64,000 nucleotides of DNA from an uncultured Alphaproteobacteria bacterium (GTDB lineage Bacteria > Pseudomonadota > Alphaproteobacteria > HIMB59): positions 186,001 through 250,000 of the forward strand of contig CACCLU010000001.1 of the NCBI GenBank assembly GCA_902546975.1. The letters run 5' to 3'. Under the pieces are notes generated by a model. The model had not been told where the DNA came from and searched no databases. It was given only the letters and a program-made list of their open reading frames with translations. The position numbers and the translations under genes are program-made. How positions within the stretch are numbered: position 1 is the first letter of the stretch; each line of letters begins with the position of its first letter. This document shows positions 21,422-64,000 of the stretch, one piece after another.

Positions 21422-21433
21422 AACGGACTCAAA

Positions 21434-21522
21434 GGAGAATTACACGACCCAACCCCTTATGTTACGGCTGCTTTCTTTCGAACCTGACCGGATTGGCATA
21501 AAAAGTTGCCCATGTAATTCTC
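21434..21522 (-). ncRNA. ffs: Signal recognition particle RNA (4.5S, small type)
   Basis: The minus strand folds into one long hairpin: GAGAATTACA (21522-21513) pairs with TGTAATTCTC (21444-21435). The apical part GGTCAGGTTCGAAAGAAAGC (complement of about 21471-21490) is the SRP domain IV, with the symmetric and asymmetric loops that bind Ffh. The tetraloop is GAAA, of GNRA type, where many bacteria have GGAA. Position just upstream of dnaX on the same strand is the usual one in alphaproteobacteria. It contains no open frame. Confidence 0.92.
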
Positions 21523-21559
21523 AAATTATCTTATAACAGTATTAAATAGAAATATGAAG

Positions 21560-60278: not shown

Positions 60279-60590
60279 TTAAAAAAATAACACCGGTAAA
60301 AAGAGGATAAAGGAAATACCAATAATTCCGTCTGTTATTAAAGAATAAAGTTTCATTTTATTTAATTGAAAATAATCCTCATAAACTTTGCCCAGTTGAA
60401 TTCTAATATGAAGCATTGATATGATAAAAAATATTAATAATAAAATTTTATTAGTGGAAGTAGATAATGAGATAACGAGAGAATTTACATCGGAGTAAGA
60501 ACTTAAAAAAAATAAAATAAACCAATAGCTAATAGGAATTAACGCTAGATATAAAATTCTTTCTATTTTCCACTTTTGAGAAGCTTTCAT
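60279..60590 (-). CDS. sdhD: Succinate dehydrogenase membrane anchor subunit
   Basis: About 103 aa with three helices. The start ATG 60590 overlaps the sdhC stop (TAATG); an upstream ATG at 60605 is less likely. [17 protein letters not shown] matches the family start and [16 protein letters not shown] near 66 holds the haem His and the quinone-site Tyr-Glu-Asp. Order sdhC-D-A-B is standard. Confidence 0.88.
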
Positions 60591-60955
60591 TAAAATATCA
60601 TCCAAGTAAAAATCAAAGTCATTATAATATTTGCTACTAGAATGAGATATGTCACTAAGTAGACATTTTTAAGATCCATTCCAATTGAAAATGACCATAA
60701 GAAATATTTAAAACCGTTTAACAAATGATGATTAAAGATAAAAAACCAAAAGACAAATATTAGCTTTATAGGTAGCAAGTTTATCAACAATGTTAATACT
60801 TGATTAAGTTGAGGAAGAAAATTTAAGCTTCCTAACCAAATTGCAAAAAAAGGCAAAGAAAAAGCAAATGCAATTACTCCTATCCTGCTGGAGATAGAAA
60901 ATACCATTGTTAAAAAAGGTCTATATATTTGCAAATGTGGTGATATTGGAGCCAT
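60590..60955 (-). CDS. sdhC: Succinate dehydrogenase cytochrome b556 subunit
   Basis: A 121-aa three-helix subunit. It begins with the family pattern PISPHLQIYRP and has the SSRIGVIAF segment with the quinone-site Ser-Arg. The haem His is in the FNHHLLNGFKYFLW segment; the Arg of the usual GIRH is Lys and the next His is Tyr. First gene of the sdhCDAB-mdh run; the 297-nt upstream region holds a palindrome and a structured RNA candidate. Confidence 0.92.
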   Translation of the reverse strand: MAPISPHLQIYRPFLTMVFSISSRIGVIAFAFSLPFFAIWLGSLNFLPQLNQVLTLLINLLPIKLIFVFWFFIFNHHLLNGFKYFLWSFSIGMDLKNVYLVTYLILVANIIMTLIFTWMIF

Positions 60956-61009
60956 AGAAAGGCAATATATTTAAAAATGTCTTATAGTAAAAAACTATTA
61001 TTTTATTAA

Positions 61010-61026
61010 TTCATGCGTTACATGAA
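61010..61026. promoter_or_regulatory. Palindrome TTCATG-N5-CATGAA upstream of sdhC
   Basis: Perfect 6-bp arms, 5-bp spacer, 17 bp in all, 55 bp upstream of the sdhC start. The size and symmetry fit an operator for a dimeric HTH repressor of GntR or LacI type. No cognate regulator is next to it. Confidence 0.45.
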
Positions 61027-61118
61027 TAAATTAAAGCTGTGGAAAAAATGTTAATCAAATTACCCATTCATTGAAATTAAGGTTCTGAAAATGCCCTATA
61101 TTCAATTAAAATCCTATC

Positions 61119-61202
61119 AGGTCGTGAACATTTTTGTTTAAATGTGCCGAATCTCACCCCGCATGAGAAAGCTTTATTCATATAAAGTTGGCACCACGAC
61201 CT
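61119..61202. ncRNA. Candidate multi-branched structured RNA between sdhC and dctQ
   Basis: Within 84 nt five pairings nest without conflict apart from one or two shared bases: P1 AGGTCGTG/CACGACCT (61119-61126, 61195-61202); P2 ACATTT/AAATGT (61128-61133, 61140-61145); P3 TGCC/GGCA (61145-61148, 61190-61193), stacked on P1; P4 TCTCA/TGAGA (61152-61156, 61164-61168) with loop CCCCGCA; P5 CTTTAT/ATAAAG (61172-61177, 61182-61187). All pairs are Watson-Crick, so strand cannot be told. It could be a leader of sdhC (start 164 nt away on the minus strand), of dctQ (51 nt away on the plus strand), or a free small RNA. I do not match it to a known riboswitch. Confidence 0.6.
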
Positions 61203-61252
61203 ATCAATATACTCTCTTTAATATGTTAATTGTCTATATATAATCTGCTGCT

Positions 61253-61780
61253 ATGTCTGCTTTGGCACAATTATCCAAATTTATTGATCGATTTAATACA
61301 ATCATAGGATATCTATGTGCTTTTTTTGTTTTCTCTATGGTTATAGTTGTATTCACTGTTGTCGTCTTAAGATATGGGTTCAATATTGGATTTATATGGA
61401 TGCAAGAAGTTTATGTTTGGCTTCATAGTTTTGTTTTTATGTTGGGTGCTGGTTTTACTTATTTAGCTAATGAACATGTCAGAATAGACGTCTTTTACCG
61501 AGAGGCATCAAAAAAATATAAAGCCACTGTTGATCTATTTGGAAATATTTTTTTACTTTTACCTTTTTTATATATTATTTGGAATTACAGCTATCCCTTT
61601 GTATATAGATCTTTTTTAATGGGGGAAGTTTCTAGAGAAGCGGGCGGTATGCCTGCTTTATATATTTTAAAAAGTGCAATACTATGGTTCTGTTTAGTTT
61701 TATTTCTTCAATTAGTCTCTAATGTAATTAAATCAATACTAACCCTTTCAAACTACCATTTGTCTGATAATAAATCATGA
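61253..61780 (+). CDS. dctQ: TRAP transporter small permease (DctQ)
   Basis: A 175-aa four-helix membrane protein: helices near 20-42, 55-75, 95-115 and 138-160; WMQEVYVWLHSFVFMLGAGFTY and NEHVRIDVFYRE are the typical DctQ signatures. A TATAAT at about 61238-61243 lies only 10 nt before the ATG, which suggests a very short or absent leader for at least one transcript. It overlaps dctM by 4 nt. Confidence 0.93.
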   Translation: MSALAQLSKFIDRFNTIIGYLCAFFVFSMVIVVFTVVVLRYGFNIGFIWMQEVYVWLHSFVFMLGAGFTYLANEHVRIDVFYREASKKYKATVDLFGNIFLLLPFLYIIWNYSYPFVYRSFLMGEVSREAGGMPALYILKSAILWFCLVLFLQLVSNVIKSILTLSNYHLSDNKS

Positions 61781-63153
61781 TTAGTCCTGAAATTTTAGCA
61801 ATTGTAATGTTTGTATCAACATTGGGATTATTACTTTTCGGTTTTCCCGTTGCTTTTACACTCGCTGGAACAGCTCTTCTGTTTGGATTTTTAGGGGATG
61901 CTCTGGAAATATTTAATTTCAGAATGCTAGGATTTTTTCCTCAACGCATTTTTGGAACAATGATTAATGAGCCCCTTGTGGCTGTGCCCCTATTCATTTT
62001 TATGGGAATAATGTTAGAAAAAACAAAAATTGCAGCCGGACTATTACATTCAATTGGTGAACTTTTTGGGACTACAAAAGGAGGTCTAGGTATTGGTGTT
62101 GTGATAGTAGGTATGTTACTTGCAGCATCAACAGGCATTGTTGGTGCAACAGTTGTTACAATGGGAATGTTATCTTTACCCTCAATGATGAAAGCTGGCT
62201 ATGATCAAAAAATAGCCACAGGCACAATTTGTGCTGCTGGAACATTGGGACAGATAATTCCACCTTCAATTGTTTTAGTTTTATTAGCAACAATTTTACA
62301 AGGCGCGAATGAAGAAGCAGCGATGTTAGTTGGTAATTTAGCTCCAGATCCGGTTACAGCAATTGATTTATTTGCTGGTGCTATTCTACCTGGATTGATG
62401 TTAGTAGTCTTATTTATAATTTTTATTTTCATATACGCTAGAATAAACCCATTAAGTTGTCCACCTGTTGAAACTACCAAGTCAAGAACTGAGATATACA
62501 TTGAAGCTGCTAAATCAGTCGTGCCTCCCATAACTCTTATTGTGCTAGTTTTAGGCTCAATTTTATTTGGAATAGCTACCCCCACAGAGTCTGCATCAGT
62601 TGGAGCTGTTGGAGCTGCGATAATTGCACTGTTAAAGGGTGAATTAAATTTCAAGAATATTAAAGAGACAGCTTTAGGAACTGTAAAACTTAGTTCATTT
62701 GTATTTGTAATTTTAATTGGTGCCTCAATGTTTTCTCTTGTGTTTCGTGGTTTTGGTGGTGATGAAATGATAGAGCATTTTCTTGGAACTCTACCTGGTG
62801 GGCTTTACGCAGCACTCATTTTAGTAATGATAGTAATTTTTCTATTAGGTTTTTTCCTAGACTATATCGAAATAATTTTCGTCATCGTTCCATTAGTTGG
62901 TCCAATATTAATTGCAAACGGGGCAGACCCATTATGGTTAGGTATTCTTATTTCACTGAATTTACAAACTAGTTTTTTAACACCTCCTTTTGGATTTTCT
63001 TTATTTTTTTTAAGAGGAGTGGCCCCAAGTAGCATTAAAACTAGAAACATGTACAGAGGAGTAATTCCCTTCATTGGAATTCAGGTATTAGCTATATTAA
63101 TTGTTGGTTTTTATCCTGAAATAGCAACCTGGTTGCCAAATAAAATGTTCTGA
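61777..63153 (+). CDS. dctM: TRAP transporter large permease (DctM)
   Basis: A 458-aa permease with about 12 helices. GFPVAFTLAGTALLFG near the start, PLFIFMGIMLEKTKIA, GIGVVIVGMLLAASTGIVGATV, the hinge GTICAAGTLGQIIPPSIVLVL (read in two adjoining parts) and LNLQTSFLTPPFGFSLFFLRG are all DctM signatures. It is the Na+-coupled channel subunit. The matching binding protein is encoded convergently after a terminator. Confidence 0.95.
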   Translation: MISPEILAIVMFVSTLGLLLFGFPVAFTLAGTALLFGFLGDALEIFNFRMLGFFPQRIFGTMINEPLVAVPLFIFMGIMLEKTKIAAGLLHSIGELFGTTKGGLGIGVVIVGMLLAASTGIVGATVVTMGMLSLPSMMKAGYDQKIATGTICAAGTLGQIIPPSIVLVLLATILQGANEEAAMLVGNLAPDPVTAIDLFAGAILPGLMLVVLFIIFIFIYARINPLSCPPVETTKSRTEIYIEAAKSVVPPITLIVLVLGSILFGIATPTESASVGAVGAAIIALLKGELNFKNIKETALGTVKLSSFVFVILIGASMFSLVFRGFGGDEMIEHFLGTLPGGLYAALILVMIVIFLLGFFLDYIEIIFVIVPLVGPILIANGADPLWLGILISLNLQTSFLTPPFGFSLFFLRGVAPSSIKTRNMYRGVIPFIGIQVLAILIVGFYPEIATWLPNKMF

Positions 63154-63202: not shown

Positions 63203-64000
63203 TTATGCTGATGGATAAGTAAATGGAAGGCTTCTTACTCTCATGTACTCTTTTTCAGATGTATTTGTCCATCTCAGAATTGATGATCTAAATTCAACAA
63301 TATGTGAGAAAAGAGCCTGAGAAACAGGGTCTTCCGCTGCTATTGAGCTACAAACCTCTCCTGCTCTTTGACCCAATGCATTCATAACTGGATCTGGCAA
63401 TTGTCTCATTTGAACACCATGCTCATTAATAAGTTTTTGATACGAACTATCGTTTGCAGCTTGGAACATAGATAGAACTTCCATGTTAACTGCCTTAGTT
63501 GCAATTGTGACTAGCTCTTTAGTTGCGTCATCAAGTTTTTCCCACTCAAACATATCTATTGAACAATCTAAGATAGTTGCTGGCTCATGCCATCCTGGGT
63601 TATAGTAATACTTAGCTGCTTGGTGTAATCCTTTACCTAAGTCAGCAGCAGGACCAATCCATTCTGTTGCATCAATCGCACCTGATGCAAGTGATGGAAG
63701 CACATCCGCTCCAGCCAAAAGAACTGTATTAGCGCCAAAAGATTTTAATACCTCTCCACCAAGACCAGGCATTCTGATTTTTAGACCTTCAAAGTCTGCT
63801 AGAGAATTAATTTCTTTATTAAACCAACCTCCCATCTGGTTACCAGTATTACCCATTGGAAGAAATTTTACACCGATAGCATTATAAGCTTTATCTGCTG
63901 CTTCAATTCCTCCACCATAGTAACACCATGCATTTTGTTCTTGAGCTGTTAAACCAAAAGGTAAAGCTGCAGAAAATGATGGTGCCATACTAATGTTTGT
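63203..64000 (-). CDS. dctP: TRAP transporter solute-binding protein, TakP-like (partial)
   Basis: The C-terminal 265 residues of a DctP-family periplasmic protein; the 5' part lies beyond the window. ALPFGLTAQEQNAWCYYGGG, LKIRMPGLGGEVLKSFGAN (with the substrate-binding Arg), GAIDATEWIGP and YYYNPGWHEPATILD match the TakP group, which binds pyruvate and other 2-oxo acids as a metal salt. It is convergent with dctQM, not upstream of it. The placement beside the TCA genes fits a 2-oxoacid importer. Confidence 0.9.
   Translation of the reverse strand, partial: TNISMAPSFSAALPFGLTAQEQNAWCYYGGGIEAADKAYNAIGVKFLPMGNTGNQMGGWFNKEINSLADFEGLKIRMPGLGGEVLKSFGANTVLLAGADVLPSLASGAIDATEWIGPAADLGKGLHQAAKYYYNPGWHEPATILDCSIDMFEWEKLDDATKELVTIATKAVNMEVLSMFQAANDSSYQKLINEHGVQMRQLPDPVMNALGQRAGEVCSSIAAEDPVSQALFSHIVEFRSSILRWTNTSEKEYMRVRSLPFTYPSA

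Follow-up and report, generated by a model that had tools for sequence, protein, structure and literature searches.

A genus-specific and apparently new structured RNA between sdhC and dctQ in HIMB59 bacteria

HIMB59 bacteria are streamlined ocean bacteria, and the window analysed here (a stretch of 64,000 nucleotides) holds a gap between two divergent genes that raises the question of whether a folded RNA is encoded there and, if so, whether it serves a neighbouring gene or acts on its own. On one side lies sdhC for the succinate dehydrogenase cytochrome b556 subunit (60590–60955, minus strand, TIGR02970 above cut-off), and on the other dctQ for the small permease of a TRAP transporter (61253–61780, plus strand, PF04290, E 4.9e-16), followed by dctM for the large permease (61777–63153, plus strand, TIGR00786 above cut-off) and by dctP for the solute-binding protein (63203–64000, minus strand, PF03480, cut by the window end). 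DctP is probably of the oxoacid-binding type, its best solved relatives being 4pet, 5cm6, 7ug8 (third-best, a ‘Ketoacid-binding protein’) and 2hzk/2hzl, which agrees with the oxoacid importer that an earlier note on this DNA had expected beside the RNA.

A conserved five-helix RNA in one genus

The plus strand at 61119–61202 encodes a small folded RNA of 84 nt, drawn from its fold and from the alignments A3 and A4 described below, and a check of the window's open reading frames revealed no plausible gene over it. Its fold energy is –27.5 kcal/mol (z –5.5, equalled by 0 of 200 shuffles); the minus strand folds well too (–26.9, z –3.9, 0 of 200 shuffles), and the mean z over 24 distinct homologues is –4.3 on the plus and –3.4 on the minus strand. 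P1 closes the structure around an outer and an inner three-way junction with two terminal hairpins. In the window's species P1 has 8 bp (61119–61126 with 61195–61202, arms AGGUCGUG and CACGACCU), while genus-wide it is a 5-bp helix, GGUCG/CGACC (61120–61124 with 61197–61201). P2 is a variable hairpin of the AACA/UGUU type (61127–61138, AACA 61127–61130 with TGTT 61135–61138), and its arm is longer in three genomes (G013, G015 and G023), giving an RNA of 129–133 nt. The inner junction is closed by P3, which has 5–7 bp across the genus (61144–61194, GTGCC 61144–61148 with GGCAC 61190–61194) and three pairs changed on both sides. It presents the P4 hairpin (61152–61168, UCUCA/UGAGA), nearly invariant in sequence, whose loop CCCCGCA (61157–61163) is a candidate recognition or pairing site, and the AU-rich P5 hairpin (61172–61187, CTTTA 61172–61176 with TAAAG 61183–61187), in which two pairs have changed on both sides. 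We rejected a small open reading frame beginning at the loop AUG, which is kept neither in frame nor in length (among the distinct versions listed it has 5 to 33 codons), and an alternative hairpin GGGGUG/CACCCC, which is visible by eye in some lineages and absent from the window's.

Covariation was scored on two alignments. In A4, a model-fitted alignment of 33 matches that is fitted to the structure (24 of them distinct, one of these, L027, a partial match), 7 of 26 pairs have changes on both sides (shuffles average 2.9, with 2 of 500 as high) and 94.0% of the cells pair, compared with 35 to 52% in slid controls. The slid controls gave 0 to 3 doubly changed pairs, although a slide by +1 still leaves 15 doubly changed cells where the unslid alignment has 18. 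The structure was drawn from A3, an alignment of 11 rows by sequence only. It has 5 doubly changed pairs, where shuffles average 1.9 and reach at least 5 in 4 of 500, and 95.1% of its cells pair, but it shows no excess of further pair types over shuffles (14 versus 13.4). RNAalifold, unaided, returned the same five helices with 7 of 30 pairs doubly changed and a small covariation term (–0.33). The double changes are located in P2, P3 and P5; neither A3 nor A4 has one in P1 or P4, both of which hardly vary, so that these two helices are supported by pairing rather than by covariation. Because a further alignment, A1, puts P5 of one subgroup in the wrong place, 11 selected rows served to build the covariance model R1. 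Together these data demonstrate that a conserved structured RNA is encoded here, beyond what chance would give.

The five-helix candidate of the earlier note is therefore real: it folds as described there, in a region without a gene, and recurs across the genus. Several details hold for the window's species more than for its relatives. A 7-bp core of the eight-base closing stem is kept in 8 of 24 distinct sequences, and the P2 of that note (ACAUUU/AAAUGU, judging from the bases it was said to share with P3) is present in the window and likewise kept in only 8 of 24. The possible switch between two folds that it had drawn from the overlap of P2 and P3 is not supported, as the shared bases survive in only 8 of 24 variants. 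Of the helices for which it had asked covariation as support (P1, P3 and P4), P3 alone displays it.

R1 matches 42 of the 162 genomes of the order, all 42 in one HIMB59-clade genus, where they make up 42 of 52 genomes with one match each; none of the 110 other genomes of the order matches. In a class-wide sample R1 matches 3 of 289 genomes, all three in the genus, and none of the other 286, which include at least one genome of the same order (G037). These genome searches used strict filters, under which weak matches are lost. Ten genus genomes have no match: eight lack a dctQ match, one has only a 30% paralogue, and in the last (G007) the contig begins 33 nt before dctQ, inside the locus. When 60 related genomes were searched at the DNA level, those of the same genus gave strong matches, with identities from 99 down to 74%, and the best match elsewhere was 23 bases at E 6.8e-4. 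An exact-pattern search matched 38 genome contigs and 0 viral contigs. Phage records gave no match, and a search for other copies in contig C1 from the genome of the window and in the genome G029 gave only two matches at E about 7.

Rfam 15 has no family over the RNA at gathering score, the only match below it being the MS2 hairpin on the minus strand (14.2 bits versus 40, E 0.66). In six homologous loci, with E up to 5 allowed, the RNA likewise drew no match. A known family of Rfam 15 was therefore rejected, and the earlier note, too, had found no class for it. Our search of the open-access literature found neither a description of this RNA nor any RNA regulator in HIMB59 bacteria, and the term HIMB59 is absent from the main text of PMC11109978, PMC8632094, PMC5069720 and PMC6429828. 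We conclude that this is a real, genus-specific structured RNA, apparently new with respect to Rfam and the literature searched.

The surroundings of the RNA are equally constant. The gene downstream is dctQ in 45 of 45 loci, and sdhC lies upstream in all but L087, which is at a contig edge. The RNA always stands directly before dctQ in the same orientation, with 48–51 nt to the ATG in the 34 loci counted. As a side observation, L045 and L097 (probably one genome) carry an sdhA-like sequence on the strand opposite to sdhC, an arrangement not shared by the remaining loci that match sdhA, reflecting either a rearrangement or an assembly error. In L095, dctP lies ∼950 bases further from dctM than in most loci, suggesting an insertion.

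Strand and promoters

The fold alone is compatible with either strand, and two observations assign the RNA to the plus (dctQ) strand. The wobble cells of A3 (11 rows) comprise 12 G-U against 4 A-C, the latter being wobbles on the minus strand only, and a –10 box, TAAAAT (61107–61112, plus strand), stands 7 nt upstream of G61120, the putative transcription start. Of 36 distinct loci, 33 have a TAnnnT-like box exactly 7 nt before the GGTC of P1 (0.045 per sequence expected by chance), although the loci are not independent, falling into 13 clusters at 80% identity of which one holds 16 of the 36; the three loci without the box at this exact distance are the long-arm loci. The upstream comparison dropped two of the 45 loci, L087 (no upstream sequence) and L039 (no CGACC), and L039 was also left out of both promoter-motif counts. 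Upstream of the box there is a weak –35-like CTGAAA (61085–61090), and a consensus scan found no excess of promoter-like sites around the locus (2 versus 3.8 in shuffles). It is thus well supported, by wobble pairs and motif conservation, that the RNA would be made from a plus-strand promoter of its own, with the opening base of the conserved P1 as its start.

A second promoter motif separates the RNA from dctQ. It spans 61216–61244 (plus strand) and consists of a –35-like CTTTAA (61216–61221, by eye), a 17-nt spacer and the –10 box TATAAT (61239–61244), followed after 8 nt by the ATG at 61253. Of 37 distinct loci, 34 carry the pattern TATA[AC]T-N8/9-ATG in this interval, 32 of them with 8 nt and two with 9 (chance 0.007 per sequence), and the three misses are again long-arm loci, which have TATAAT- or TATACT-like boxes at other distances. 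The consensus scan does not flag this promoter, and no Shine-Dalgarno sequence was seen before dctQ by eye in 32 loci. Since a –10 box usually lies 6–8 nt from the transcription start, a distance of 8–9 nt to the ATG would place the 5′ end of the dctQ mRNA at the start codon; we infer that it is leaderless, in which case the RNA lies outside it. The genome-wide signal of leaderless genes is weak, at 55 versus 48.7 expected from shuffles for distances of 5–10 nt, and at 11 versus 7.3 for TATAAT-like boxes 8 nt before starts. In G029 (loci L119–L189) such boxes are in excess 6 nt before starts (19 versus 7.7 in shuffles), hinting at some leaderless mRNAs in that genome.

A simple scan of 60900–61400 found 0 terminator-like sites, and with no intrinsic terminator seen the 3′ end of the RNA is a guess. 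The SRP RNA of the window (21430–21524, minus strand) resembles the new RNA here, its closing stem being followed by only a weak T stretch (by eye).

The P4 loop and its possible partners

None of the 20 rows of A2 departs from the element CUCACCCCGCAUG, and all 31 loci retrieved with the covariance model have CCCCGCA as their P4 loop, a count that leaves out G147, G148 and G159 (three of the 42 genomes with a match). Loci fetched by the exact pattern contain the loop by design, and their loop identity is no evidence. P4 and its loop are kept beyond the needs of pairing, which points to recognition by an mRNA, a protein or a ligand. To act on an mRNA it would have to do so independently of Hfq, as Hfq (PF17209, E up to 0.001) was found in 0 of 52 genus genomes, while 5 of 14 control genomes match, Caulobacter included.

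Among mRNAs, ftsZ is a lead. The loop matches the ftsZ ribosome-binding site GCGGGG, which is kept in 44 of the 44 genus genomes with ftsZ (40 as TGCGGGG and four as CGCGGGG). Of the 1399 genes of G029, ftsZ alone has GCGGGG immediately upstream of its start; by duplex energy it comes 10th of 1399, level with the gene after it. However, family f2, which is without the RNA, keeps an ftsZ site of its own, ACGGCGGAG, in 24 of 24 genomes, so that conservation of GCGGGG alone proves nothing. The ftsZ ribosome-binding site is in fact strict yet family-specific (f2 loci L250–L273 versus genus loci L220–L249 and L275–L288). The complement CTCCGCCGT has 36 sites in the 24 f2 genomes, 24 at ftsZ and 12 elsewhere; as the latter are found in 10 genomes only, there is no second site common to all f2 genomes. 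TCCGCCG was not found in the noncoding DNA of 400 kb of G037. Perfect 7-nt core complements near start codons are not enriched in general: 5 of 1418 genes have one, compared with an average of 6.8 when the core is shuffled, and 187 of 300 shuffles give at least as many. The genome-wide box, duplex-energy and complement counts all take as start the first ATG in frame, which is crude. A second TGCGGGG-ATG site ∼10 kb from ftsZ was discarded because in each of three loci examined it falls within a coding frame. A trans-acting RNA whose CCCCGCA pairs with the ftsZ site (U)GCGGGG, tying cell division to carbon supply in a clade without detected Hfq, is a specific idea that we nevertheless consider unlikely.

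Stand-alone RNA or leader, and related systems

We favour, at about an even chance, a stand-alone small RNA with its own promoter that acts in trans. Such an RNA would be transcribed on the plus strand from the first base of P1, would presumably end in the stretch just ahead of the dctQ promoter, and would be released as a separate species of ∼85–100 nt (∼130 in the long variant), its paired 5′ and 3′ ends protecting it. The dctQM genes would be transcribed apart, from their own promoter, as a leaderless mRNA, while the RNA would most likely act in trans, without Hfq, its C-rich and nearly invariant P4 loop, held out by the inner three-way junction, pairing with an mRNA or being gripped by a protein. 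This reading draws on the recurrence of the RNA across the genus, the double changes in P2, P3 and P5, the wobble cells, the –10 box at P1, the second promoter motif before dctQ and the lack of a terminator-like site, together with the failure to find Hfq in the genus, the invariant loop element and the precedent of EcpR1. Against it stand the lack of enrichment of core complements near starts, of an intrinsic terminator and of a promoter excess in the consensus scan, the weak support for leaderless genes, and the constant position and orientation before dctQ, which would also fit a cis element.

Such a cis element would be a dctQM leader and might represent a new class of oxoacid-sensing riboswitch; this is a serious though doubtful candidate. 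The transcript from 61120 would fold as an aptamer and control run-through into dctQ, perhaps via Rho, the second promoter providing basal expression. The near-constant spacing to dctQ fits this, as do an aptamer-like anatomy with a nearly invariant loop and a variable P2, the resemblance of dctP to a ketoacid binder, and the ten genus genomes without the RNA, of which nine have no visible dctQ orthologue either and one is truncated by a contig edge. However, the conserved promoter motif 8–9 nt before the ATG leaves no room for a leader, the usual expression platform is missing (neither a terminator-like site nor, in the 32 loci, a Shine-Dalgarno sequence before dctQ), and the RNA is known from a single gene context in a single genus; the metabolite-sensing leader proposed earlier is thus possible and not favoured. 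A protein-bound housekeeping RNA with no mRNA target, for example a regulator of RNA polymerase or the ribosome replacing 6S RNA, appears improbable. Its 5′ and 3′ ends are paired, as are those of 6S and SRP RNA, there is no excess of mRNA complements, and 6S RNA (RF00013) has 0 matches in the window's genome, though it is found in Caulobacter; but this absence rests on one genome, the anatomy is unlike that of 6S RNA, and both tmRNA and SRP RNA were recovered with the models specific to them. Least credible, and very improbable, is a minus-strand leader controlling sdhC. The good fold of the minus strand and the adjacency of sdhC in all loci except the one at a contig edge would suit it, but wobble cells and –10 box alike favour the dctQ strand, contrary to the regulation of sdhC suggested before, and the sdhC start is 164 nt away.

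Under either main reading the RNA matters. The core of this five-helix RNA is kept letter for letter in a genus with compact genomes, so strong selection is likely. As a leader it would add a new sensor RNA ahead of the genes for an oxoacid importer, and as a stand-alone RNA it would be a regulatory RNA at work in a clade without detectable Hfq; with a covariance model, a strand, a putative start and a candidate target in hand, both readings are directly testable.

Three sets of known RNAs invite comparison. The structured RNAs of Pelagibacter (the rpsB, rpsL and ffh motifs and SAM-V; PMC2704228, in part) also belong to a small-genome marine alphaproteobacterium, whereas they precede other genes, and TRAP, dctQ, dctP and sdhC are absent from the main text of that report. 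The candidate structured RNAs fcbT1-I and fcbT1-II lie upstream of a TRAP transporter gene (PMC6429828, in part); compared by description only, they are exceedingly simple and near the ribosome-binding site of fcbT1, in contrast to a five-helix RNA before a permease gene. The nearest precedent for its function is EcpR1, a trans-acting sRNA of Sinorhizobium and other Rhizobiales that is Hfq-independent and has a dominant form of 101 nt (PMC4414408, in part). Its strongly conserved GC-rich loop (UCCGCCGCAUCU) was shown to pair with the gcrA and dnaA mRNAs, and ftsZ is among its predicted targets; the ftsZ1 transcript fell on overexpression (log2 –1.33), and the fusion was not regulated (S7 Fig. 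legend, PMC4414408). EcpR1 is likewise alphaproteobacterial, and its loop shares CCGCAU with that of the HIMB59 RNA. According to the same source, EcpR1 lies downstream of divK-pleD and consists of two hairpins, with a terminator that is putatively Rho-independent, whereas the HIMB59 RNA has five helices closed by P1, no terminator seen, and a place beside dctQ.
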